Source: a virus
Strand: one strand, 5' to 3'
Length of the DNA: 33,236 bases
Virus record (IMG/VR): IMGVR_UViG_3300021225_000401
Span: 1-33,236 of that record
Below, piece by piece: positions 4,211 through 18,830 of the stretch. Below the pieces are notes generated by a model, which was given only the letters and a program-made list of their open reading frames with translations, was not told the DNA's origin and made no database searches. Made by a program: the position numbers and the translations under genes. Positions within the stretch are counted from its first letter, which is position 1. Every line of letters starts with the position of its first letter.

Positions 4211-4558
4211 ATGACCATCCTATCAATAACCGAAGCCGCCCAAATCCTCAACATGCAGCCTGAAACCTTGCGACGAAAAACCAAGGCCGGAGAAATCCAA
4301 GGCAAGCGATCTGGTAAACGTGGCTATCTTTACACTCAGGCCGGACTTGAAGCGTGGATAAATGGCGAGTATTCTCCACAGCGTAGAGAGTTGCGGGTGA
4401 TTGATGGCGGACAACCAACGGAGAAAACTAAACCATGTCAATCTACACGCGCGGGGAAACGTGGTGGATTCAATTCACCGCACCAAACGGCGAGCGAGTA
4501 CAACGCTCTGCTAAAACTAGATGTAAAAAAGAAGCCCAAGAACTGCACGACACGTTAA
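4211..4558 (+). CDS. xis: Excisionase-like HTH protein (115 aa)
   Basis: Residues 4-60 form a MerR/AlpA-type helix-turn-helix: LSITEAAQILNMQPETLRRK, then a wing with GKRSGKRGYLYTQAGLEAWI. Such proteins bend DNA at attachment sites and steer integrase toward excision. The C-terminal 40 residues are polar and probably disordered; their codons overlap the first 124 bases of the integrase gene in another frame, an unusually long overlap. The position directly before the integrase is the main reason for the excisionase call. A general transcription factor of the same fold cannot be excluded. Confidence 0.75.
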   Translation: MTILSITEAAQILNMQPETLRRKTKAGEIQGKRSGKRGYLYTQAGLEAWINGEYSPQRRELRVIDGGQPTEKTKPCQSTRAGKRGGFNSPHQTASEYNALLKLDVKKKPKNCTTR

Positions 4559-5460
4559 AGGCCGAAGCATGGCGGGTTAAAAATCTGGGGGATAAACCCC
4601 GCCACACTTGGCAAGAGTCGGTTATTAGGTGGATAACCGAAGGGGAAGGACGAAAGGGGCTAGAAACCGATAAAGTGCATTTGCGCTGGTTGAATCAGCA
4701 CTTAGGCAATCGGTATCTTGACGAAATTACCAAAACCACGCTTGACCGGATAAAGGAGGCAAAGAAGGAAACCGGAGTAAGCAACACAACAGTGAATCGC
4801 GTCATGGCGATTATACGGGCAATTCTCAATCGGGCAAAGGATGAATGGGAATGGTTGGACTCAGTGCCAACTGTGCGAATGTTGCCTGAACCAACATGCA
4901 GGATTCGTTGGCTAACCCCACAAGAGGCGCATAGGTTATTGCAAGAATTGCCACCTCATCTGGAAGCAATGGCAAGGTTTGCACTGGCTACCGGATTACG
5001 TGAGGCAAACGTAACAGGGCTTAAGTGGTCACAAGTTGATATTGAACGGCAAACCGCGTGGATATTGCCCGATCAAGCCAAGGCTAAAAAGGCAATCAGC
5101 GTGTTTTTAAACAGTGACGCGCTTGCCGTACTGGCCCATCAAACCGGAAACCATCCTGAACGGGTTTTTACCTACAAAGGCGAGCCAGTCAGGAAAGCGG
5201 GTGGTAAGGCATGGCGAAAAGCACTAGAACGCGCTGGCATTGATGACTTTCATTGGCATGATTTGCGCCATACGTGGGCAAGCTGGCATGTGATGAAGGG
5301 AACGCCGCTAAACGCCCTCAAAGAGCTTGGAGGGTGGGCTGATTATGACACCGTTTTGAAATATGCCCACTTGTCGAGCGATCACTTAAAAAGCCATGTG
5401 GAAAACTCGAAAATAGCAAAACCTGTGACAAATTTACTACAGCACAAAAAAAAGGCTTAA
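4435..5460 (+). CDS. int: Tyrosine-family phage integrase (341 aa)
   Basis: A site-specific recombinase that would join the phage attachment site to a host tRNA gene. The N-terminus (MSIYTRGETWWIQFTAPNGE) is the typical arm-binding beta start. A SAM-like core-binding domain follows (about 58-145) and the catalytic domain runs from about 155 to 325. Catalytic residues are Arg189 (TGLRE), a hairpin Lys near 217, His275 and Arg278 (HDLRH), Trp301 in place of the second His, and nucleophile Tyr310 (KYAHLS). Its start lies inside the excisionase gene. attP begins about 30 bases after its stop, the usual arrangement. Confidence 0.96.
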   Translation: MSIYTRGETWWIQFTAPNGERVQRSAKTRCKKEAQELHDTLKAEAWRVKNLGDKPRHTWQESVIRWITEGEGRKGLETDKVHLRWLNQHLGNRYLDEITKTTLDRIKEAKKETGVSNTTVNRVMAIIRAILNRAKDEWEWLDSVPTVRMLPEPTCRIRWLTPQEAHRLLQELPPHLEAMARFALATGLREANVTGLKWSQVDIERQTAWILPDQAKAKKAISVFLNSDALAVLAHQTGNHPERVFTYKGEPVRKAGGKAWRKALERAGIDDFHWHDLRHTWASWHVMKGTPLNALKELGGWADYDTVLKYAHLSSDHLKSHVENSKIAKPVTNLLQHKKKA

Positions 5461-5658: not shown

Positions 5659-6045
5659 CTATCCACCTAATTGCTTAAGTCGATAAACAACCTTATCAAC
5701 CAAGCTAACCCGCCTAGGATTAACCGCCGTTAACGGCTCTTTTGTCGCTTGTTGAGCATAAGCAATATCAGCCATGCCGTGCAGTAAGGTATTGGCTATA
5801 TCCTGACGTTTGATATTCTCTTCACGCGCCGAAACCACCGCCTCGCCAGTTGCCCGATTTGCTTGAGCAACTTCAGCCAACATAATTGGCATAAACGAAA
5901 TGCCACACGCTGTCTCGTCCATCATTTCACCCGTCTGAGGGTTTCGCCCCGCTAAAGTTGTAAGCCAGCCGCAACGATAAATTTTACCGTCTTTTGACTC
6001 TTCACATTTAGCCCCCAACGGGCATGTTTTAACCGTTTCAATCAT
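5659..6045 (-). CDS. Hypothetical Cys-containing late protein (128 aa)
   Basis: This is the last gene of the late operon before attP. The ATG at 6045 is chosen: it overlaps the stop of the fibre gene as ATGA and has AGG upstream, while the longer frame begins with TTG. The first 50 residues hold four Cys (TCPLGAKCEE, YRCGWL, ETACGISF) and a conserved-looking NPQTGE turn, possibly a metal or disulfide site. The remainder is helical. I recall similar small proteins at the end of podovirus late operons with no known role. Confidence 0.75.
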   Translation of the reverse strand: MIETVKTCPLGAKCEESKDGKIYRCGWLTTLAGRNPQTGEMMDETACGISFMPIMLAEVAQANRATGEAVVSAREENIKRQDIANTLLHGMADIAYAQQATKEPLTAVNPRRVSLVDKVVYRLKQLGG

Positions 6046-7037
6046 GACTTTGTACCTATGCAAAAATCCATATAACGAGGCGACCAGCTTGTTGCACCTG
6101 TATTTACTGCTGTAGCTAACGAAAAAGAAATATTGGCATTTCCGCTTGCCGTTGTTCCAGAACCTCCAAAATATCCTGCTGGCCCTGTGTTCCCATCGAC
6201 TTTGTATAATGGGTCTGTAGTGCCGTTCGCATAACTGTGACTATGACCGCTATCGGTAATTGTCCCTGTTACTGAGTGAGTATGCGAGGCGACCACATTA
6301 TTTAAAATTGGCGAATGACCGCCACCGCCGTTGCTTGTTCCGCCTGTTGCGCCCGATGTTACTACGCGCATCATAGAGTCATTTTGTATTGTCGTTGCAG
6401 TCCAGCCAGCCGGAGGCGTTGCCATGTAAAACGGCATAATCGTCCCCGAAGCAATTGACGGGGAAATATTAAAGCTTGGGTAAGTCGGATTAAGAAAGCC
6501 GTAGTAAACCGACACTAAACCAGCATCTAAAACGGTTGAGTCATTCGTAACCGTTACCGTTGTTATTCCCGTCGCATAGGTTGAGCTGGCAATTGTTGCA
6601 TAACACACGCCGCCACTGACGGCGGCCTTAATTCGGCGGTAATAAGTAAACGTGTCGCGCTGATCACCCACTACCGAAAAGCTAGTTGCCGAGATATAAG
6701 TCGCTGCACCCGAAAACAATAACCACTCAGAAATTGAAGGCGTAGACGTGTCATTCACGCCGCTGATCTTGTCAACCGTCCTAATCAACGTGCCAAGACT
6801 ATCCCGCAAAACCGCCTTGTAACTATTCCCCGACGTTAGCCATATTGGATTATCTGGCTCGCCCCTGATATTCAACACAATGGGGTTTGCTTGGGGCACC
6901 GCCCCCAATGAGTCTGAATAAGTGGTTGCTGGCGTAGTCGTGCCGGACAAATACCAATAAAGTTGCCCACCGGAAAGCGTATCGCCGACGCTATCAAACT
7001 GAGCATCGTTAAATAGTGGGCTTAAAAAAACGGTCAT
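6042..7037 (-). CDS. Tail fibre protein with collar domain (331 aa)
   Basis: Probably a trimeric virion protein that contacts the host surface. Residues 8-95 are an N-terminal beta domain with GGQLYWYLSGTTTPATTY and RGEPDNPIW, a module seen at the start of several podovirus tail proteins. From about 197, SGTIMPFYMATPPAGWT is the phage tail-collar signature. It is followed by His pairs HTH (252-254) and HSH (265-267), as in fibres whose shaft binds metal along the trimer axis, and a C-terminal strand RYMDFCIGTK. It overlaps both neighbours by 1-4 bases, so it is co-expressed with the ejection proteins upstream. Confidence 0.85.
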   Translation of the reverse strand: MTVFLSPLFNDAQFDSVGDTLSGGQLYWYLSGTTTPATTYSDSLGAVPQANPIVLNIRGEPDNPIWLTSGNSYKAVLRDSLGTLIRTVDKISGVNDTSTPSISEWLLFSGAATYISATSFSVVGDQRDTFTYYRRIKAAVSGGVCYATIASSTYATGITTVTVTNDSTVLDAGLVSVYYGFLNPTYPSFNISPSIASGTIMPFYMATPPAGWTATTIQNDSMMRVVTSGATGGTSNGGGGHSPILNNVVASHTHSVTGTITDSGHSHSYANGTTDPLYKVDGNTGPAGYFGGSGTTASGNANISFSLATAVNTGATSWSPRYMDFCIGTKS

Positions 7038-9916
7038 TATTTGTCCCCTACGTGTGGAATGGTTTGTCCATAAATGCCAAGGTTGGTTATAAACGCATCC
7101 GCCAACCGTTCGCGTGACGTGGGCGACATGTTCTTAAGTGCTTTTTCGGCATATTTTGGGTCTAAAAGCATTCTGGCAAATGTCGCCTTTAGTTTTTCGT
7201 CGCCAATTTTTTCGGTTGCCTGAATCGCAAATTTTAGCGCACCACCGCCGGGAATTTTCCCAAGTAAAGCTGTAGAGAAACTACTGTTAGCGAGATTAGC
7301 CGCTGTTGGCGAGCCTTGGCTAAGTGCCGCATTTTTGGCAAACTGGACACTTTCCAAGTCTTGTTGCAATCGGGTCAATTGTGCTTTTTGCTTCCGGTTT
7401 AATAGCATGTCGGCAAGCTTGCGGTTATCTGGCGACTTCAAAAACTGCAACGCGTCCGCTTGGTTCCAACGCTGATTACCTAAAACGTCGCTTGCACCTT
7501 TTTGGAGTGTCTTGTTTAAGTAAACATCCTTAATACCGCCAGCAAGGTTGGCTTTTTTGTCTTTGTCGCTGCTGATCAATGTCCCAATATCGCCAATATC
7601 TTTTTCTTTAGTCGCACTGGACAACAAGCTTTTGACCTGCTTTGGTGCGTCTTTGTCATTCAGGAAATGCCGAACGCCGCCGCTTTCGAGTTTGGCTTTA
7701 GTTTCCGCCGCTTGGCCCTGCAGTTTCATTGCCTGGTCAATACGCGCTTTCAGTTGTGGGAACTGATTAAGCACTGGACGATACTGGGCGTTAAATTTTG
7801 CATAAGCATCGCCAAAGTTTTTTTTCAGCTCACCGGATGGCGTAAATAAAGCATTATCGAATTCACCCTTAATATGGCTTTCCGCCGCCGCCATCGCCGC
7901 ACTATCCCCACCGATAGCCGTCACAAACCGCTTAACGTCATCAGGCGAACCATTCAAGAAATTACGCATAACCTGGGCATCTTCAAGCTTAGTTGTGTTG
8001 TTGATGCCTTTGCGAATTAAGTTATTTGTTGCCCCAGTCTCAAACGTGTCGCCCTGATTCTTCCGTAACGCCACCGCATACCGCACACGATTAGCCATAT
8101 CGGGAGGGATAACGCCAGCTTCCGCCGCCATTTCTGGCACGTCAGTTAAAATCCGTTTCATCTCGCCCAGAGTTCCCGCCGCGTGTACGTCGCCAGTGAG
8201 TCCGGCCTTGTGAACCTCTTGGCTGGCTTTTGCCCTTAGTGCGCTGATGATGGATAACGGCACTTGGCTTGGTTGATTTCCCGCGATTGCCATTAATTGC
8301 TTAACCGCTGGAGGAAGCTCATCATCCGCCAAAGGATGCCGAGCCTTAATAACCGCCTCAAGCTTATCCAACGGAATAGAAACCCGCGATTCATTGTTAG
8401 GGTCGATAGCCTCGTAAGCCGCTTTGGTTGCCGCTTTAGCATCCGCGTGTCGACCACCCACCACACCACGAACCACGCCGCCCATGTATTCAGGCGTTGC
8501 GTTGCTGGCAATGGCATTAGTGGCATTCTGAGCGTTTAAGCTGTTTGCCGCGTTGATCTGGTTAACGTCGCCCTGCACTTGCGTTTTGAACTTTTCCGCG
8601 CCGTTTTGTGCGGGGATAGCTTTGTTAGCCAGTGCCGCTTGTGCCGCCTGTTGTTCTGCATAGCGATTGGTGAACGCTTCGGGAATGCTAGTGTTTTCGT
8701 CCAGTCGCCCTGGCATGGTTTGGTATGTCCGTTGCATACTGGCAAGGCCGGAGTTTTTCAAAGCCTGTGCGCTGGTTTGCTGGCTACCTTTGATAATGTC
8801 TTTCTGGTTGGCGAGCATTTGTATCAAGGTTTGGCGATCTTTGCCAGACGCTTCGATAAAGCGATCAGCCGCCATATTGTTAACACCCGTGTTAGTAATT
8901 TTGTTGCGGTCGAGTAATTTTTGCGCACCGATTCTACCCGCACCCGAAGCACTGGGAGCAATAACCGAGGCGGCAATTCCAGCAATCGGGGATTTAGTCA
9001 CTTCTTGCACTGAGCCGCCAGCTACACCACCCACCGCGCCAGCCGTTAAATTACGCGCAAGGCTTCCAGGGGATAATCCGGCTCCGGTCATTGACTGGAT
9101 TACATAATCAGCAACCCGACCGCCTTGTGACGTGGGATCGTATTCACCGCGAATCATGCCATTGTTGCGCATAAAATTTTGAACGGTATTTTCTGGAATA
9201 GTGACTTCCGGCGCGTCTTTCGGATCATAAAACGCCATCCCGGCACCCGCTTTAAGCAAGTTGTAGGCGTTTTGTGGGGTGTTTAAAATGTTATCGGCTA
9301 CACCCGCAATCCCTTTATTCACCGAATTAAGCGTAAAACCTAGGGGACTACCCCCCTGATCTGGTTCAGCTTGCATAGTCTGCGAGCTGTTCAGTTCTGC
9401 CAGAATCTTCGGGTCAGTGACTTCTTTCATAGACTGTGAACTGTTCAGTTCTGCCAGAATCTTAGGGTCGGTGACTTCTTTCAGCTTGCTTGTGTCAACG
9501 TATGGGGTTTCATCCGCACTGGCTGAACTAATCGGATTCAATGCGCCCAGTATTTGGGACACATAATTCTTAGTTTCTGGAAATGGTGGAATACCTTTGT
9601 GCGCATCAACCGCCCTCGGACCGGCATTGTAAGCCGCCAATGCCAAACGTTCGTCACCGTTGTACTTTTTCAGCATCGCGCCTAGGTAATCGGTGGCAAA
9701 CCGCCGTTGTTCTTGTGGGCTATTATCCGCCAATGGTTTAACGCCAAAGCCTGGATCACGGGCGGTCTTAGGCATGACTTGAGCAAGTCCACGCGCACCT
9801 TTTGGCGACACCGCCGCATTATTGCCGCCAGATTCTTGTTGAATGAGCGCATCGACCAATTCAGGCCGAGGAATGCCAAAATGGGCAAGAATAGTTGGGT
9901 CGGTGACTTCTTTCAT
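7037..9916 (-). CDS. Ejection protein with lytic transglycosylase domain (959 aa)
   Basis: A large internal virion protein equivalent in position to P22 gp16. Residues 15-125 are an SLT transglycosylase domain: catalytic Glu28 in ALIQQESGG, GLAQVMP (43-49) and AYNAGP (95-100). It would cut peptidoglycan locally as DNA enters the cell. Around it, the motif KEVTDPxILA occurs three times (2-11, 146-155, 164-173). The remaining 750 residues are Ala-rich and helical with Gly/Ala hydrophobic stretches around 280-320 that could insert into a membrane. The start ATG is itself part of the first repeat. The gene overlaps its upstream neighbour by four bases. Confidence 0.9.
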   Translation of the reverse strand: MKEVTDPTILAHFGIPRPELVDALIQQESGGNNAAVSPKGARGLAQVMPKTARDPGFGVKPLADNSPQEQRRFATDYLGAMLKKYNGDERLALAAYNAGPRAVDAHKGIPPFPETKNYVSQILGALNPISSASADETPYVDTSKLKEVTDPKILAELNSSQSMKEVTDPKILAELNSSQTMQAEPDQGGSPLGFTLNSVNKGIAGVADNILNTPQNAYNLLKAGAGMAFYDPKDAPEVTIPENTVQNFMRNNGMIRGEYDPTSQGGRVADYVIQSMTGAGLSPGSLARNLTAGAVGGVAGGSVQEVTKSPIAGIAASVIAPSASGAGRIGAQKLLDRNKITNTGVNNMAADRFIEASGKDRQTLIQMLANQKDIIKGSQQTSAQALKNSGLASMQRTYQTMPGRLDENTSIPEAFTNRYAEQQAAQAALANKAIPAQNGAEKFKTQVQGDVNQINAANSLNAQNATNAIASNATPEYMGGVVRGVVGGRHADAKAATKAAYEAIDPNNESRVSIPLDKLEAVIKARHPLADDELPPAVKQLMAIAGNQPSQVPLSIISALRAKASQEVHKAGLTGDVHAAGTLGEMKRILTDVPEMAAEAGVIPPDMANRVRYAVALRKNQGDTFETGATNNLIRKGINNTTKLEDAQVMRNFLNGSPDDVKRFVTAIGGDSAAMAAAESHIKGEFDNALFTPSGELKKNFGDAYAKFNAQYRPVLNQFPQLKARIDQAMKLQGQAAETKAKLESGGVRHFLNDKDAPKQVKSLLSSATKEKDIGDIGTLISSDKDKKANLAGGIKDVYLNKTLQKGASDVLGNQRWNQADALQFLKSPDNRKLADMLLNRKQKAQLTRLQQDLESVQFAKNAALSQGSPTAANLANSSFSTALLGKIPGGGALKFAIQATEKIGDEKLKATFARMLLDPKYAEKALKNMSPTSRERLADAFITNLGIYGQTIPHVGDK
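9374..9481 (-). repeat. 54-bp tandem duplication in the ejection gene
   Basis: Two adjacent copies (9374-9427 and 9428-9481) differ at a few bases and encode the 18-residue unit containing KEVTDPKILAELNSSQ. A third, diverged copy forms the N-terminus of the same gene (about 9876-9916). Confidence 0.9.
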
Positions 9917-11082: not shown

Positions 11083-11988
11083 TTAGTACCCCTTACCGTT
11101 GTTAAAGCCTAGGGATTGCTGGCTTAATAGCGTGTTGTTGTTAACACTGCTCCATGGGTTGCTGTTTGTGTTTCCAGAGCCAAACTTATCCGAATAAGCC
11201 GCGTAAGCACCCAGTCCACTATTGACCGCGTTGCCGATGCCTGTATACATATTGGCGTTATTCTGCCCTTGAGCCATCGACAAACTAGCCTGAGTGTTGC
11301 CATTGTTGGTTGCCGCACCTGCCAAAGCCGAACCCGCGCCAAGTTCTGCACTTGCTTTGCCACCCGCCGCCGTTTGCCCGTTATTTGCCATCGACTGCAA
11401 TCGGCTATAGCGGTTGGTGTTGCTGGTGTTGTTGCGGTCAAATGCCGCTTGGTAAGCTTGTTGCGCACGTTGCCAAGCTGCTTGGTAGCCTGTCGCCGCT
11501 TGCCCCTGCGCGTAATCGTTAACCGCTTTGACCTGCCGACCGGACAATAAAGAGCCGTTAGCCGCCGCCGAATTGTTAACCGACTGCAAGCCTTGTTCGA
11601 GTTGGAATTGATAGCCAGGGGTGGCTTGGAGGGATGCCAAATCCGTCACCATAGGGGTATAACCCGCATCGTTCCGGTACTGGTCTTGTGTGAAGTTTTG
11701 ATTTAATGCGCCTTGCTGGCCTTGACCAACAAAGCCCGCATCACCGCCGCCCGTGCCCATTTCCCAAGCGAGCTGGTTTGCCGCTTGTCGCCCCATTTTT
11801 TCGTAGGGGTCGTAATATCCTTGAGCTTTTTCGTTGGCTTTGGTTAAGAATTCTTTGGTTTGCCCATAAGATTCTTTTTGCTGATTGCTGGCATTATTGA
11901 GCGCATCTTCTTGCTCGCTGGCTCCCGCTAGTGATGTGCCAATTGATGCCGCCGTACTAATGCCGCCTACTACCGCCGCTGCAACCAT
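11083..11988 (-). CDS. DNA transfer (ejection) protein, gp7-like (301 aa)
   Basis: The N-terminus has an Ala/Gly-rich hydrophobic stretch (AAAVVGGISTAASIGTSLAG), then helices with AQGYYDPYEKMGRQAA. The middle has TPGYQFQLEQGLQSVNNSAA, AANGSLLSGRQVKAVNDYAQ and a following Gln/Ala helix. This pattern (TPGYxFxLxQG...G...SG) is typical of the P22 gp7 family of DNA transfer proteins. The C-terminal 80 residues are Asn/Gly/Ser-rich and low in complexity. It would be packaged in the capsid and leave with the DNA. Confidence 0.8.
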   Translation of the reverse strand: MVAAAVVGGISTAASIGTSLAGASEQEDALNNASNQQKESYGQTKEFLTKANEKAQGYYDPYEKMGRQAANQLAWEMGTGGGDAGFVGQGQQGALNQNFTQDQYRNDAGYTPMVTDLASLQATPGYQFQLEQGLQSVNNSAAANGSLLSGRQVKAVNDYAQGQAATGYQAAWQRAQQAYQAAFDRNNTSNTNRYSRLQSMANNGQTAAGGKASAELGAGSALAGAATNNGNTQASLSMAQGQNNANMYTGIGNAVNSGLGAYAAYSDKFGSGNTNSNPWSSVNNNTLLSQQSLGFNNGKGY

Positions 11989-12006: not shown

Positions 12007-12462
12007 TTAATCACCCAGCCACTTAGAGAAGTAAGTTTCTACTGGATCAAATTTTAAATACTTAAATAATGGACTTGCATCGGCGTGAATCTTTGAACCG
12101 ACGAACCACCGCTGAACCCCACGGCGTTTTAATTCACTTTCTACAAACTGAAACAACTTAATTCCCGCGCGTCCGTTGCGCTTGTCTTTTCGGATATAAA
12201 AAATATCCATTGTGCAGGTCAGGCAGGTTTCATAGTGCAAACCGGGGGCGATAAAACCGATAAAGTACCCGATAATCTCGCCTTCTTCCCGTGCTGTCAC
12301 CAACAGCAATTGCCCTGCATCTTCCCGTTGTGCGTAAACATGCCATTGTGGTGCAAGTGGTACTTTGTCTTTATTAAGTGCCAGCTCTTCCCAGTGCAAA
12401 GGCAACAAGTGTTTAAATTCGTCTAGTCGTTCTTTTACACTTTCAACGGCATAAGTAATCAT
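12007..12462 (-). CDS. GNAT-family acetyltransferase (151 aa)
   Basis: An acyl-CoA-dependent N-acetyltransferase fold of normal length. Strands 2-4 include QLLLVTAREEGEIIGYFIGF; motif A is FYIRKDKRNGRAGIKLF, with the R-x-x-G-x-A/G acetyl-CoA pyrophosphate loop around residues 108-113. A helix (QFVESELKRRGV) and the terminal strands FVGSKIHA and YLKFDPVETYFSKWL follow. The substrate is unknown. It lies between the spike/hydroxylase pair and the ejection genes, where P22-type phages may carry virion assembly factors, so a virion or host-surface substrate is possible. A 53-base gap upstream holds a possible promoter. Confidence 0.85.
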   Translation of the reverse strand: MITYAVESVKERLDEFKHLLPLHWEELALNKDKVPLAPQWHVYAQREDAGQLLLVTAREEGEIIGYFIGFIAPGLHYETCLTCTMDIFYIRKDKRNGRAGIKLFQFVESELKRRGVQRWFVGSKIHADASPLFKYLKFDPVETYFSKWLGD

Positions 12463-12515: not shown

Positions 12516-13085
12516 TTATTTTGAGAGCTTAATATCAATAACCAAGTGAATGCGATCATCAGCCGAATTGTTAATGACTTCGTGCAATTGCGCGTTATCA
12601 AACCACCAGCATTCCCCCGTTGCCATGTACACCTGTTCATCGCCAGCAATAAAAACCACCCCAGGCTGTGACTGCAAAACAATATGAAACCGATCATAGT
12701 ATTCTGCATGTGCTGGCGTGTCTTTGTGTGGAAAAATGCGCCCCCCTGGCTTGATTTTGTTGATAATGCACCGTCCCAGCCGTTCACCCTGTACGTTTGC
12801 CATTAGTGCCATGATTAGCGGTCTGGCTTCATGCAGGACATTGTAAACAGGCAGGTCTACAGATTCGTGCTGGTCAAAATTCGCCAAATCTCCTGCCTCA
12901 GCTTTTCTGGTTTCCTCGGTTGAGCGAGTCGGAAACCTCAAAATGATAGATTCACAATCACCAAACGGCCCTTGTGGGTAATCCCTCAGATACGTGTCCT
13001 CTTTCCATATCCCGTCGTGACGTTTTATTGCCAAAAGCAAAGGCAGGACGCTAATTCCTGCCGCGATTTTTTGAAAGTTTTGCAT
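12516..13085 (-). CDS. Asp/Asn beta-hydroxylase-like 2OG dioxygenase (189 aa)
   Basis: An Fe(II)/2-oxoglutarate oxygenase of the aspartyl/asparaginyl hydroxylase type. The metal triad is visible as H120-x-D122 (IFPHKDTP) and H168 (QLHEVINNS), with Arg178 ten residues on (DDRIHLVIDI) as the likely 2-oxoglutarate anchor. FHIVLQSQPG and GECWWFDNAQLHEV are typical of the family. The start at 13085 is preferred over an upstream one at 13139 because AAAGAGG lies just before it. The enzyme would hydroxylate Asp or Asn side chains. The adjacent spike and fibre are possible substrates, but that is inference. Confidence 0.88.
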   Translation of the reverse strand: MQNFQKIAAGISVLPLLLAIKRHDGIWKEDTYLRDYPQGPFGDCESIILRFPTRSTEETRKAEAGDLANFDQHESVDLPVYNVLHEARPLIMALMANVQGERLGRCIINKIKPGGRIFPHKDTPAHAEYYDRFHIVLQSQPGVVFIAGDEQVYMATGECWWFDNAQLHEVINNSADDRIHLVIDIKLSK

Positions 13086-13099
13086 TGTTGCCTCTTTAA

Positions 13100-16000
13100 T
13101 TAAATACCAACCAAAATACCCGCGCCATTCGACACCCAAGAACTCGGCGCGGGCGTGTCCATGGTTTTACTGTAAATGTTCCCATACCACCAAATAGAAA
13201 ACGTTGTTGCCCCCGTCACCTTCCAGCACACCGAATCACGCCGCCAATCTTGAACTGATTTACTAAGATTGAGCCTAAAAATTGGGAAATCATAAGTTTG
13301 CGCACCTGCATCATTTGTCCATTTGAGCTGAAAATATCCGTTTGGATCAACTAAATCAGAATCATTTGCAACATACCAAAGCTCAAACGTTGTAAAATCT
13401 AAGACAACCTGATTAATTGGGGTTTTAGCACCCCAAAATGGCGAGAATATGCCTTCCATATCATAACTTGAGTATGACGTTTCAGCCCTTGACGTGCCGC
13501 TAATCAGCCCAAACGCTGCAACCGCTTTTGAGCTTCCGCATTTCAACAATTGCATTCCATCAGAAAACTTTATGCTACTGCTAGAATGCCAAAATCTGAC
13601 GTACATCCTTAACATGCTTGCGCCTGTTTCGCCTGGCCTAATTTTGACAGGCATAAAAAGCGGGGTTTTAGTGTAAGACGGAACGCGCCGAACGTTATCA
13701 GAAACCCTAGAAGGCGATGACAACGGGCCAACTATCAAAACTGCCGCCGCATGACATGCACTAAAATCATTCATAACCGAGTTACTTGTGACGTTTGCAA
13801 CTAACACGTATTCTTCATCTAATGCCGTTGTAAAAGCCTGCCTGCTTCTTATATAGCTGTGAGTAGTTAAAACGCTCCCACGCGTAGATAGCATAGTCCC
13901 GTTTAGCTCCCAGACAATATCGGTAAGCCCTAATGCTGAATCGCCGCCCACAAAAACTGGCGTGTCTGATCTTGTGTCGTAATATCCGCACCCCCTAGCA
14001 ACAAGCGGCTCTCTAACATAAATCGTGTTTCCTTCGTCGTTTTCATAACTATCAAGGGTATATGATATTGTTGTAATTGTTTCTGTGCTAAAAACAAACT
14101 TAAAAATTGTGCTAACAAATATAGTCCCGGCGGTGTCGGTATTGCCAAACGCAATATAAGCCTCGTCTGCACTATAAACACACGTCGAATTTATAACGGC
14201 TGCTGGCAATGTTGCCGATAACGTCGATACTGTTCCAGCAACCAAATTAACTTTATATATTGTAGTTCGGATGGTTATCCCGGCATCACCCCCAAACACA
14301 TAAAGGATTGAGCCATATAAAGCGACCGTGTGCCGCTGCGTATTTGACGGCATGTTAACCAATAACGTTGCCACCCCCGTCGCTGGATTGACTTTATAAA
14401 TTGCTTTACTCACTGATGCTAACGTGCGCCCTCCAATAATGTACAAATAACCGCCGTAATACACCATCTCATGACGCTGCAACGCCACATCAATACCACT
14501 ATTGGTTACATTAGCGATAAATACCCAAGAATCAGAACCTGTAATTGATTTTGAATATAGCCCCGCTTGGTAAGTCGTCGAGCCATCAATTCCACCATAC
14601 GCCCAAACCGTTGAACCATTTGTTGCTGCCGCAAGCTCTTGAACGCTAATAGGAAACGCGTTTGATGTTGCCATAGAACCATCTGGAAGGCATTTATAAC
14701 AAGCCGTCTGCGCTCCAACTAAAGTAACCCCTGCAACAGACAACGCCGTGCTATCTGAAGCAATTACCATTGTTGATGACCTAAGAACTTTTGACCAACC
14801 AAGCGAATAATAAGGGGTCATGTCAAACGTATTGCCGACATGATTGGAAAGCGAGCATTTTCCGTAAGAAAAGAAATCCGGCCTATTTTCTGGCGTGTTC
14901 CAACCACTAAAATCAGAATTGCTGTTAACTACAGTTAAATCCGGGGTAACTTCAAAACCGCTTAACCTAGGTGCTGCGTACATATCCATAGCGGTCATTA
15001 CCGCACCAAGCAACACATCCATAAAAACCGTAGACGTAACTCCTGGATTTTCGGTTTGCGGGGCTTCAATCAAAAAAACGACGGCTTTTGGATTTCCACG
15101 ATTACGAAACCAATTGTACAAATAGGGTTTTTCGTGTGATTTTCGCTCTGCTAAAGTTGGTTGATCATTAACTATAGTAAATCTGCTCCAGTCGCGTTTA
15201 GTCACTAAATTGTTAATATAGTGATAAGCCCGGCGATGCGCCACCTCGCCCTCTTGATGCCAGTAAATCTGCTCAATCAAAAAACCCCATATAACTTGTG
15301 ACGTCCATCCGTGAGTATCGACAGCAACGTAAACGCGATTAACAAAATCCAAAGACCAATTTTGTACTCCTACAGTTTCAGGCTCGGATGATACGGAAGC
15401 CCCCTTATCTAAATCATCCTCAAGCGGCCAAAACCAAGGAAAATTTCTATTAAGGTTTATATGGTTTCTATTATTTCTAGTGTTATCAACTACGCCATCA
15501 GCATTAACGCTAAGTATGATAATCAGCCCGACTGTATTAGCAATTTTAGCAATACTGGGAAGCGTTGCCAGTGCATATTCTGTTGCAAATCTCATCATTC
15601 CGGGCACACCGTCACGCTCGTCGCCATGAATTCCTGTTGAAATAACAACTAACGGATTATTGCCCGTGTCTCTGATTCTTAACGCCGTGATTTTGTTACC
15701 GCTTGGCAGGATTGCCACATCTTCAAACGTAACAACGCGAGGGAAACGCGCCGCAAGGCTGGCGGCCTCTAATAAAGTTTGTGTGTATGAATAAGCCGTT
15801 GTGCTGTCTGTAAATGGCGACGACAAGCCGACCGTTTCAATAAACTTAAATGGGGAATTTAAAAGTGTGTGTTCGCTTGCTTGAGTTGAGGCGGATATGC
15901 TGGCTTCTGGTAAAGTCGGATAAACCTCACGGCTAACGATTCCAAAGAATATCAACCAAGGCAACGTCATCAACCCATTGTCATAAATAACAGGCTCGTG

Positions 16001-16210
16001 AAACGGTGCGCGATTCTTGCCAAGCTTGGTTAAAAACTGCACCCAATGAACACTAAACAGCCGAGAATCGGTTAAAACCCGCGTATTGCCCGGGCAAATT
16101 TCCGACGAACTGAGACTATCAAAATAAGCCGACCAGTATTGCGAAATGCGCCCATCATCCGTAATAACGCGCATTTTTGACGGCAATGCAAAAGGTGTCT
16201 TAGTGGTCAT
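13100..16210 (-). CDS. Tail spike/fibre with M14 carboxypeptidase and Kelch-like repeats (1036 aa)
   Basis: Residues 12-95 hold three copies of a roughly 30-residue motif (RVITDDGRISQYW, RVLTDSRLFSVHW, PVIYDNGLMTLPW), probably virion attachment. Residues 130-412 form an M14 zinc carboxypeptidase domain with a complete site: zinc ligands His195 and Glu198 (GIHGDERDG) and His300 (VDTHGW), substrate-binding Asn254-Arg255 (NLNRNFP), general base Glu382 (FLIEAP). About 530-775 has five Kelch-like blades (YGGYLYIIGG, YGSILYVFGG and others). The C-terminal 190 residues are beta-rich. It lies after the gp10-like tail gene with an ATGA overlap, the place of a receptor-binding protein. The substrate may be peptidoglycan peptide or a surface polypeptide. 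Confidence 0.88.
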   Translation of the reverse strand: MTTKTPFALPSKMRVITDDGRISQYWSAYFDSLSSSEICPGNTRVLTDSRLFSVHWVQFLTKLGKNRAPFHEPVIYDNGLMTLPWLIFFGIVSREVYPTLPEASISASTQASEHTLLNSPFKFIETVGLSSPFTDSTTAYSYTQTLLEAASLAARFPRVVTFEDVAILPSGNKITALRIRDTGNNPLVVISTGIHGDERDGVPGMMRFATEYALATLPSIAKIANTVGLIIILSVNADGVVDNTRNNRNHINLNRNFPWFWPLEDDLDKGASVSSEPETVGVQNWSLDFVNRVYVAVDTHGWTSQVIWGFLIEQIYWHQEGEVAHRRAYHYINNLVTKRDWSRFTIVNDQPTLAERKSHEKPYLYNWFRNRGNPKAVVFLIEAPQTENPGVTSTVFMDVLLGAVMTAMDMYAAPRLSGFEVTPDLTVVNSNSDFSGWNTPENRPDFFSYGKCSLSNHVGNTFDMTPYYSLGWSKVLRSSTMVIASDSTALSVAGVTLVGAQTACYKCLPDGSMATSNAFPISVQELAAATNGSTVWAYGGIDGSTTYQAGLYSKSITGSDSWVFIANVTNSGIDVALQRHEMVYYGGYLYIIGGRTLASVSKAIYKVNPATGVATLLVNMPSNTQRHTVALYGSILYVFGGDAGITIRTTIYKVNLVAGTVSTLSATLPAAVINSTCVYSADEAYIAFGNTDTAGTIFVSTIFKFVFSTETITTISYTLDSYENDEGNTIYVREPLVARGCGYYDTRSDTPVFVGGDSALGLTDIVWELNGTMLSTRGSVLTTHSYIRSRQAFTTALDEEYVLVANVTSNSVMNDFSACHAAAVLIVGPLSSPSRVSDNVRRVPSYTKTPLFMPVKIRPGETGASMLRMYVRFWHSSSSIKFSDGMQLLKCGSSKAVAAFGLISGTSRAETSYSSYDMEGIFSPFWGAKTPINQVVLDFTTFELWYVANDSDLVDPNGYFQLKWTNDAGAQTYDFPIFRLNLSKSVQDWRRDSVCWKVTGATTFSIWWYGNIYSKTMDTPAPSSWVSNGAGILVGI

Positions 16211-17640
16211 GACTCTAGTTCTTGACCTTCAACCACCGCCCCTATGATGATGACTTTTACAGGGTCGCTAATTTTGATATTGAAAACCCAATCTCTAGCC
16301 GCGCCTAGTCGTCGCCATTCCGCACGGGTTTTGTACTTACCAATTGCGCCTAAATTAACCCACAATTCATTACCAAATGTGTGCCCACCATCACGGGAAA
16401 TCCTGAGCATCGCTTTTGGTGCTGAACCTTGACCCGTTGCAGTACCCACGCCGCCTTCAATATCTATTCGCAAACGCCGGATAGTTACACTGCTTAATGC
16501 TTTACTGAATGAATGCGATCCCGTTATCTCCCGCTCAATCGGTGCGCCGTTGTCGGTAGTTGCGTTACTGTCCAGCAAATACAATTGACCGTTGCGATAA
16601 TCCGACACGATAAACTTTGTACCAAAGCCCGTGCCAATGTCGCCTAAGTGACGGCTAAACCCGTAAGACTTCAATTGCGACCATGCGCCACTGCTCGCCT
16701 CATAAAGCCATGATGCGCCCTGACTTCTGAATGTGATCTGGTAAAACTGCCGACCGTTCATGGTGTAGCCAAAACCCACGGCATCTTCTGGCGACACATA
16801 GTCACGAATCAGAAAATCAATGTCAGGCGTACTAATTGGAGTTAACACATACCCGATCAACTGAGCAATGACTAGAGAGCCGTGACGATTGCGGAATAGT
16901 CCGGTTAATTGCCCTGCGCATTTTGAAAGCGACCATTTAGCCGCAAGGCCACCCTCAGACGGAGCGGCATTAATGCGAATGAATGGGAAGGCGGTATCTG
17001 CAAACGGAGTCCATATTTCAGTCGATGAAGTGCCAAACAATACCAGCATCCCCGCATCGGCAACCACCGCTTGCAGGTCATCAGGACTACTTTCGGCTGT
17101 TGCATAATCCAACGCGCCCCACGTCAAACCGTCGTACAGGCCAGAAATAAAAAACTGTCCGGTATTGATACGATTGACAATGAATCGACCAGCTAAAAAC
17201 GTGACTGAATCAGCCGCATAGAGCATCGTTGACGTAATGTTAGTTAACGCCGATGTATTAATGTTGAAAATATAGCCATGCGTTCCGGTAACAATACAGA
17301 TTTGAGCGCCGTTGTTCGCCATTGACACACGGCTAGTCAAGTCGGCTGGAGTTGATGCCGGAAACGTTGCGACCGTTGCAAAGCTGCCGTTATTTTGCAC
17401 GGCAATCAAATTATCACGCTGGACAACATAAAGCGTGTCGTTTTGCTCCATCCAGTGCATACCGCGAGTAATTTCCCCGCTTGGATTGCTGAGCAAATTT
17501 AGTCCAGGCGTACCGACTGCCGCCACGTTGGTTTTGTCGGCTTGCGCTTGAATGTCGAGATAAAGATTAACGCGCTTTTGTGCGGTCAGATTGGGGGATT
17601 TTGACTGTTGCCCGATGCCAAACAGGTTATAAGCTGGCAT
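16207..17640 (-). CDS. P22 gp10-like packaged DNA stabilisation / tail hub protein (477 aa)
   Basis: Family features include the N-terminal MPAYNLFGIGQQSKSPNLTA and KRVNLYLD, then GTPGL, repeated beta blades, ESSPDDLQAVVADAGMLVLF and FGTSSTEIWTP, then NRHGS and a C-terminal ARDWVFNIKISDPVKVIIIGA. In P22, gp10 closes the portal after packaging and joins the tail needle to the gp4 ring. The length is close to the P22 protein. Start and stop overlap the neighbouring genes by one and four bases. No separate tail-needle gene was recognised downstream, so the needle may be missing or unrecognisable. Confidence 0.87.
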   Translation of the reverse strand: MPAYNLFGIGQQSKSPNLTAQKRVNLYLDIQAQADKTNVAAVGTPGLNLLSNPSGEITRGMHWMEQNDTLYVVQRDNLIAVQNNGSFATVATFPASTPADLTSRVSMANNGAQICIVTGTHGYIFNINTSALTNITSTMLYAADSVTFLAGRFIVNRINTGQFFISGLYDGLTWGALDYATAESSPDDLQAVVADAGMLVLFGTSSTEIWTPFADTAFPFIRINAAPSEGGLAAKWSLSKCAGQLTGLFRNRHGSLVIAQLIGYVLTPISTPDIDFLIRDYVSPEDAVGFGYTMNGRQFYQITFRSQGASWLYEASSGAWSQLKSYGFSRHLGDIGTGFGTKFIVSDYRNGQLYLLDSNATTDNGAPIEREITGSHSFSKALSSVTIRRLRIDIEGGVGTATGQGSAPKAMLRISRDGGHTFGNELWVNLGAIGKYKTRAEWRRLGAARDWVFNIKISDPVKVIIIGAVVEGQELES

Positions 17641-18830
17641 TAGTTGCCCCGATAAATGTTAAAGCCGCTGCCATTTTTCCCAGTCAATGCAATATCAATC
17701 TGAGCAGTGATAGGCCGTTTATTTGTGCGCTTGATGCCAGCTTTTGCCGATATAGCCAACGTCATAACATCCGCCCCCGCTGTGGTTTGATATTCATGGG
17801 CAATCTCAACCGCAAGGCAATATTTCATAGCCCTACAATAGCCAGGTGGTAATTCTACCGGGCTGTTTAATGTGTGGAATTGTGTAAACTCTTTCCGTGT
17901 GTACAACGACAGCGATACTGGCGCGTTTGGCGTTGGGTAAATATGGACAACTTCCAACGGGTAAGTTTTTTCTATATAGCAATATTGTGGAAAACCACCC
18001 ACCAGCGATTTAAGTTTAATTGCTGCCCAGTCGTCATATTCGAGCAAATCAAGCGGGTAATCAATACCGTTAACATTGAACGTAGCTTTTTCAATTTGCA
18101 TAGGTCTAGCCGTGTCAAAGTTCCCGCCGGGCCCTAGCGTATAAGTTGACTGATTTATCGTTAATGGAAAAATCTCACTAGTTACGTTAGTAATCATCAA
18201 CGATTCATTACTCCAACCGTCCAACATAAGATTAAGGCAATCTAAAGCATCCTGCGCTTCGCTATCGGTTAGCGACACATCTGGAGACAATACCTGCAAA
18301 ATTCGTAATGCACCGCTAATGATGCCAATTGCTGTGCATCCTTTTCGATAATTAACAAGGCTTACTGTGGCCTTGGCTGCGGTTATTGAAAAACTTGGAA
18401 CATTAGCAAAAATTGGCAAATCATAAGTTAGTAAAATAGATGAAATAAGCGTGTTTTGCGCCCCCCCCATACTAATATAAAATTCTATGTAATCAATCCC
18501 GTCAGAAAACGGGTCAATTTTTGTAAAAGTTTTTGCGCCTGTTGTGACGTATGCGCCGCCATTAGAAATATAATTTAATCCCGGCATAGCGAACATGTAT
18601 ATAACTGTACCACCTGGATTCGATACGTTATTTGTCATCACGATTTGAAGTGATACCAAATAATTAACGCTTATGGGTGATATTGGCGTTATTCTGATAA
18701 TTGCAGTATCAAAACCAGTTATTACCGCGCCACTGCCGCCCCAAGTTACCGTACAAGCTGGCGAACTATATGGCGACGTGGCTATATTGACTAATGATTG
18801 ACTACATAGCTGGACTGTTGAAATAGTCAT
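17640..18830 (-). CDS. gp4-like tail accessory factor with N-terminal extension (396 aa)
   Basis: The C-terminal part, from about residue 155, is a P22 gp4-type head-completion domain: ALRILQVLSPDVSLTDSEAQ, DALDCLNLMLDGWSNESLMI, LGPGGNFDTARPMQIEKA, FPQYCYIEKTYPLEVVHIYP and PPGYCRAMKYCLAVEIAHEY. It would form a ring under the portal. Family members are usually about 160-220 residues. Here an extra N-terminal domain of about 150 residues is rich in Ser, Thr, Ile and Val, looks like a beta sandwich, and is not recognised. The extension has no internal stop and the whole frame is open, so fusion is real in the sequence. Confidence 0.82.
   Translation of the reverse strand: MTISTVQLCSQSLVNIATSPYSSPACTVTWGGSGAVITGFDTAIIRITPISPISVNYLVSLQIVMTNNVSNPGGTVIYMFAMPGLNYISNGGAYVTTGAKTFTKIDPFSDGIDYIEFYISMGGAQNTLISSILLTYDLPIFANVPSFSITAAKATVSLVNYRKGCTAIGIISGALRILQVLSPDVSLTDSEAQDALDCLNLMLDGWSNESLMITNVTSEIFPLTINQSTYTLGPGGNFDTARPMQIEKATFNVNGIDYPLDLLEYDDWAAIKLKSLVGGFPQYCYIEKTYPLEVVHIYPTPNAPVSLSLYTRKEFTQFHTLNSPVELPPGYCRAMKYCLAVEIAHEYQTTAGADVMTLAISAKAGIKRTNKRPITAQIDIALTGKNGSGFNIYRGN

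Follow-up and report, generated by a model that had tools for sequence, protein, structure and literature searches.

A probable virion-borne zinc carboxypeptidase with a Kelch propeller and a tripled putative docking motif in a P22-like phage

What is a zinc carboxypeptidase, fused to a Kelch propeller, doing among the structural genes of a short-tailed phage, and does it travel in the virion? Known phage tail depolymerases mostly cleave polysaccharides, and the gene considered here, for a protein that we call P0001, would call for a different kind of target. Below we examine its genomic setting, its domains, its N-terminal region and its relatives, and we weigh the ways in which such an enzyme might be used.

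Gene and operon context

The window, by which we mean the whole stretch of DNA that was analysed, is a virus record of 33,236 bases with genes for terminase, portal, scaffold, a P22-type coat, adaptor, Hc3 and ejection proteins, together with an integrase gene at positions 4435-5460. Because it combines an integrase with a P22-type structural gene set, we assign it to a temperate short-tailed phage (P22-like, podovirus-type). Matches to the integrase are scattered across many proteobacteria; among named records Hc3 comes closest, at 37% identity, to that of Rhodoferax phage P26218 and those of environmental podoviruses, followed by BA3-like vibriophages. The gene for P0001 lies within the structural operon, between the Hc3 gene and the ejection genes, and its ATG start overlaps the stop codon of the upstream Hc3 gene as ATGA. 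The relevant genes are as follows.

6042..7037 (-), separate protein of the tail fibre/spike slot, P0012 (N-terminal homology)
7037..9916 (-), internal/ejection protein with an N-terminal lytic transglycosylase (SLT) domain (Pfam PF01464; phrog_342)
11083..11988 (-), DNA-ejection protein, downstream of P0001 in the same operon (phrog_598)
13100..16210 (-), putative M14-Kelch tail-tip protein P0001, 1036 residues (ORF list, Pfam)
16207..17640 (-), Hc3 head-closure/packaged-DNA stabilisation protein, P22 gp10-like (phrog_578, E 2e-90)
17640..18830 (-), Ad3 head-tail adaptor, P22 gp4-like, with an extra N-terminal domain of 165 residues (PHROG match)

Over its first ~90 residues P0012 is homologous to two N-termini, those of P26218 gp26 and of the MW202557 colanidase spike. 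Since P0012 thus occupies the ordinary fibre/spike slot, P0001 is in a second one, immediately downstream of Hc3; the P22 map has the needle gene 26 in this place, after gp10. The preliminary description of this locus had placed the protein where a receptor-binding spike is expected. A virion slot within the structural operon is what we find, but it is the needle/fibre slot that follows Hc3, the usual spike slot being that of P0012. Hc3 is accordingly the predicted docking partner of P0001.

Several neighbouring genes have features of their own. Homology of the Ad3 adaptor to that of the sister phage L124, whose Hc3 is 58% identical, covers residues 166-396 (BLAST), the L124 adaptor being without the ~165-residue N-terminal domain; this extra domain might decorate the virion or serve in binding. 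Directly after the M14-Kelch gene, at 12516-13085 (-), lies a gene for an Asp/Asn β-hydroxylase/cupin-like protein (PF05118), a position at which relatives have a cupin-like protein, annotated in some of them as a short tail fibre. A GNAT acetyltransferase gene is found inside the structural operon at 12007-12462 (-), and acetyltransferase-like genes occupy a comparable position in PBR31 and MW202520. Finally, the relative L044 encodes an uncharacterised protein of 797 residues with spike-like sequence (576-2969, +) between its adaptor and Hc3 genes, and this gap is a further appendage site in the phage group to which P0001 belongs.

The M14 domain

The enzyme domain and its predicted active-site residues map as follows.

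14978..15802 (-), M14 zinc carboxypeptidase domain, residues 137-411 (Pfam, model, structure superposition)
15617..15628 (-), predicted zinc ligands H195 and E198, HxxE (alignments)
15476..15478 (-), R245, equivalent of the carboxypeptidase active-site arginine R127 (profile alignment; invariant)
15446..15451 (-), N254-R255, equivalents of the Asn-Arg pair that binds the C-terminal carboxylate (profile alignment; invariant)
15311..15313 (-), predicted third zinc ligand H300 (profile alignment and alignment of relatives)
15065..15067 (-), predicted general base E382 (invariant in alignments A2, A6 and A7)

The Pfam family Peptidase_M14 (PF00246) matches residues 151-309 with 59.6 bits, against a curated cut-off of 21.6 (E 4.9e-16). 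A more specific assignment, to the murein tripeptide amidase MpaA (NCBIfam PRK10602), was rejected at 23 bits versus an equivalog cut-off of 157. A model of residues 105-428, built from an alignment of 25 M14 domains, has a pLDDT of 88.1 and a pTM of 0.88. Its fold matches those of carboxypeptidases A, B, O and T, with many A/B rows tied for best; superposition on carboxypeptidase B1 (7eqx) gives a Z score of 28.7, with an rmsd of 2.2 over 257 residues. Structure prediction, proposed at the outset as a check on the trimer and the zinc site, returns a carboxypeptidase A/B fold for this domain.

The six core residues named in the preliminary description (H195, E198, N254, R255, H300 and E382) are all where it put them. 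When a profile of the relatives is aligned to solved carboxypeptidases, R245, N254, R255 and H300 fall on known active-site positions, and all seven residues, R245 included, are invariant in alignment A6, which has ten M14-Kelch rows representing nine distinct proteins (the L010 protein being the same as that of L005) with identities to P0001 as low as 22%. H300 drops off the invariant list in A7, whose ten rows include the two most divergent relatives, and is kept in A2, which also contains those two; its loss looks like an effect of alignment. The position of carboxypeptidase A (CPA) Tyr248 is seemingly taken by an invariant serine, or else the loop is shifted. It is the invariance of the core catalytic residues throughout the ten-row alignment that leads us to argue for catalysis, and the intact Asn-Arg pair would favour exopeptidase action.

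The Kelch propeller and C-terminal region

The M14 domain is followed by two further regions.

13874..14803 (-), six-bladed Kelch propeller, residues ~470-779 (Foldseek, structure superposition)
13103..13855 (-), β-rich C-terminal region, residues 786-1036, common to the relatives (alignment; low-confidence model)

In Pfam the repeats are recognised by Kelch_6 (PF13964; 30.8 bits against a cut-off of 25.3) and Kelch_1 (PF01344; 26.8 against 20.1). Five Kelch-like blades had been counted from the letters of the sequence, but the fold has six, since the propeller superposes on complete six-bladed Kelch domains, matching that of NS1-BP with a Z score of 36.5 and an rmsd of 2.1 over 280 of 284 residues. 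The full-length model of P0001 has a mean pLDDT of 59.8, with values of about 90 in the propeller region; outside the Kelch and M14 parts it is poor, with low confidence for residues 1-127 and 786-1036.

The tripled N-terminal motif

Residues 10-92 of P0001, which the preliminary description passed over, consist of three tandem copies of one motif, at steps of 30 and 29 residues. They were recognised by repeat and motif tests and by similarity to the motifs of L124 and X14.

16112..16183 (-), putative docking repeat 1, residues 10-33 (...RVITDDGRISQYWSAYFDSL)
16022..16093 (-), putative docking repeat 2, residues 40-63 (...RVLTDSRLFSVHWVQFLTKL)
15935..16006 (-), putative docking repeat 3, residues 69-92 (...PVIYDNGLMTLPWLIFFGIV)

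The internal triple repeat scores 94, a value reached by none of 2000 shuffled sequences, the highest of which scored 57. The motif itself comes from the relatives, in which proteins of the post-Hc3 slot share an N-terminal motif, D..G..SR.W..FF..L, which is present once per protein in most of these phages; P0001 has three copies in the form D..G...(S)..W..FF..L. Among 81 Hc3 loci, many of them close relatives, the next gene was readable in 79, and by a strict expression at least 49 of these 79 have the motif; the count is a lower bound (L044, for example, is missed). The proteins that bear it are needles, fibres or a pectate-lyase spike: in BA3-like phages the motif is followed by coiled-coil-like stretches, and in MW202674 by the pectate-lyase spike. 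L124 has a single motif in its post-Hc3 slot, and each of the three P0001 repeats resembles it.

In an ungapped 14-column test none of 3000 shuffles attained the summed post-Hc3 motif score of P0001, for a stretch that was picked after the motif had been seen. A profile HMM of the motif scores single repeats weakly, at 1.8 and 3.7 bits, which is not beyond shuffles, and the significance of the docking motif in P0001 accordingly rests on the ungapped test together with the tripling. Elsewhere in the scanned Hc3 loci the motif never occurs more than once in a protein. When IMG/VR was scanned for the triple W..FF spacing, the three matches returned were attributable to chance (out of frame or unrelated), so that no second triple-anchored protein came to light, and tblastn with the N-terminal 115 residues alone retrieved nothing meaningful among 50,697 phage records.

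The triple repeat is the strongest clue in the sequence to where P0001 may be located, and it points to docking on the virion in the needle slot. From the position of the genes we infer that the motif binds Hc3.

Recurrence of the M14-Kelch module

Three other IMG/VR phages (L005/L010, L006 and L007/L008) have the M14-Kelch-β module at 41-43% identity. Phage J2-1 and L009, L027, L028 and L029 have it at 22-28% identity, and L011/L013 in a still more distant form. A search of the viral contigs with the single protein found no M14-Kelch proteins; these were recovered by searches with alignments. Among the bacterial genome contigs scanned there were distant M14 proteins only, and no M14-Kelch prophage.

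In L009, L027 and L028 the module is C-terminal to the N-terminal part of a tail-tip hub of the TipJ/GTA type. The N-terminus of the L009 protein matches annotated GTA TIM-barrel and tail proteins, and the other two are assigned through their similarity to L009. In a tree of the module P0001 adjoins the L005-L007 group (100% support), apart from the hub-fused L009, L027 and L028 (93%). These relationships would fit a module that has moved between virion anchors.

Other arrangements were also seen. L011 (6713-11266) and L013 (1358-5863, +) encode proteins of ~1500 residues with a distant M14 domain, Kelch repeats and long extra C-terminal domains. The M14-Kelch protein of L029 (6569-10054, +) has a zinc-ribbon-like segment at its N-terminus (CDRCSFKFKASKL...VCNACWEPRHPSDFF), and its gene lies between coat-like and adaptor-like genes. 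L033 (6077-8110, +) has an M14 peptidase behind the curated tail-spike N-terminal domain PF18668 (Tail_spike_N), and is by its predicted domains a second, independent peptidase-tailspike design; P0001 itself has no match to PF18668 (TSP1/Gp66 N-terminal domain) at E<=1.

Proposed role and alternatives

We consider it probable that P0001 is a virion tail-tip M14-Kelch enzyme that is docked at Hc3 and trims surface peptide. The N-terminal tripled motif would attach the protein to the Hc3 (gp10-like) nozzle, either on its outside or within it, where relatives have a tail needle, a fibre or an enzymatic spike, so that it would project the M14 metallo-carboxypeptidase, the six-bladed propeller and the β-rich C-terminal domain. 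The propeller and the C-terminal domain probably attach to the host surface, and the zinc enzyme would take C-terminal residues off a surface peptide or peptide-bearing polymer, for which peptidoglycan stem peptides, a polyglutamate-like polymer and a surface protein are all possible candidates. Such trimming might open a route to the membrane, or report contact, ahead of DNA release. Taken together, the analyses strongly suggest both virion location and catalysis, and they suggest the exopeptidase mode and the binding to the surface.

We regard P0001 as probably virion-borne because of its docking repeats, its place among the structural genes and the fusion of related modules to tail-tip hubs. 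With the domains themselves, these observations make the original suggestion, an M14 peptidase that bears a Kelch propeller and is part of the virion, the best reading. The same three observations make a cytosolic enzyme that is absent from virions, the refutation foreseen in the preliminary description, unlikely, and they weigh against a related proposal, in which P0001 is active outside the virion as a soluble enzyme that is freed at lysis and clears a surface peptide polymer for the progeny. There is a precedent for this in PghP, the best-known M14-like peptidase of a phage, which is related to carboxypeptidase A and reported to be non-structural (PMC6966330; PMC4497714), and some of the relatives (L005-L007) are without a long N-terminal anchor. 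Set against the tripled post-Hc3 motif of P0001, its needle-slot position and the hub fusions, however, we find a soluble role unlikely. Nor do we favour a receptor-binding protein that has reused the carboxypeptidase fold for binding only and is in practice inactive. The needle-slot proteins of relatives are mostly short, with no obvious enzyme domain, and the CPA Tyr248 position is not clearly kept, but binding alone needs none of the zinc ligands, the arginine, the Asn-Arg pair and the catalytic glutamate, all of them invariant at 22-43% identity, and this makes an inactive protein improbable.

How many chains occupy the slot is a separate matter, since our preferred reading, of a docked virion enzyme, leaves the oligomeric state open. 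One sub-case, assumed in the preliminary description, is a homotrimeric spike or fibre, with three chains, nine docking motifs and three catalytic sites. In relatives the M14-Kelch module is attached to tail-tip hubs, and the hubs of well-studied phages are trimers. The same holds for the needles and tailspikes known from P22 (PMC3741392). The model of P0001, however, shows no coiled coil, β-helix, collagen or knob, in regions where its confidence is low, and each chain already has three motifs, compared with at most one in the other slot proteins examined; we regard a homotrimer as quite conceivable, at somewhat less than an even chance. More tentatively, P0001 might be a pseudo-trimeric plug made of a single chain, a monomeric enzyme that has taken the place of the phage's trimeric needle and whose tripled peptide fills the three sites of three needle chains. 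If so, one metallo-carboxypeptidase with a Kelch receptor-binding head would stand at the very tip of the tail, where its trimming of peptides would clear or sense the host surface. A symmetric tail would thereby have been fitted neatly with an enzyme that is monomeric, and needle-slot docking on the gp10 nozzle, a long-standing question, would become directly testable. More widely, if a mobile M14-Kelch module is mounted on several virion anchors that are unrelated to one another, its bearers would form a family of tail enzymes directed at peptides, from which one could learn which hosts expose peptide polymers or trimmed peptides at their surface.

Comparison with known systems

The preliminary description knew of no example of this domain set, and among the open-access papers searched we found none that brings together a zinc carboxypeptidase, Kelch repeats and a phage. 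A domain search among phages, which it had proposed, nevertheless recovers the M14-Kelch layout in J2-1 as well as in the IMG/VR contigs. The 'Kelch motif family protein' of Pseudoalteromonas phage J2-1 (MF988720, ATN93378.1) has the same M14-Kelch-β order in ~930 residues and, like P0001, keeps the catalytic residues. It differs in its 142-kb genome and its N-terminus, which is without docking repeats; its M14 part is unannotated, and identity to P0001 is about 22-26%. The L005/L010, L006 and L007/L008 proteins resemble P0001 along the whole module, with invariant catalytic residues, but are encoded in neck/tail or lysis-side clusters and have short N-termini without the triple repeat. L009, L027 and L028 share with P0001 the placing of M14 (with Kelch in L009 and L027) at the C-terminal end of a virion protein, whereas they are anchored by the N-terminal portion of a hub protein of long tails rather than by the Hc3-slot motif. 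Kelch proteins are rare in phages, and one has been proven in the virion of phage CBB (PMC5259590).

A peptidase in a phage tail is not in itself the novelty that it had seemed. M14 zinc carboxypeptidases are annotated in the tail clusters of Staphylococcus phage StB12 (gp61), Bacillus phage Page (gp14), Halomonas phage YPHTV-1 and Stenotrophomonas phage BUCT702, and phiCP24R was reported in 2012 to have a viral zinc-carboxypeptidase domain (PMC9234517). StB12 gp61 is, like P0001, encoded in a tail gene cluster, and its record explicitly notes a tail protein. The M14 domains of these four phages are distant from that of P0001, being reached via the M14 protein of another phage, and they belong to other tail types and hosts.

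PghP of phage phiNIT1, a poly-γ-glutamate hydrolase (PMC4497714), is like P0001 a phage zinc peptidase, and it acts on a surface peptide polymer. By its published description, however, it is a soluble endo-hydrolase of 23 kDa for which no Kelch repeats are mentioned.

For the mode of attachment the nearest comparison is with the needle gp26 of P22 and Sf6. In P22 the needle consists of one trimer, which may bind in the tail channel through a site made up of its N-terminal residues, and the C-terminal tips of needles vary and are exchanged between phages (PMC3741392). The slot after gp10 and the N-terminal docking are as we propose for P0001, but gp26 has a trimeric coiled-coil shaft and a non-enzymatic tip, whereas P0001 has three motifs per chain, an enzyme and no visible shaft, its model showing no long helix outside the M14 domain (with residues 1-127 at low confidence). 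The parts of P0001 are thus known separately, and tail peptidases as such from annotations; the M14-Kelch fusion is recurrent and seemingly still to be described, and the tripled anchor is so far unique.
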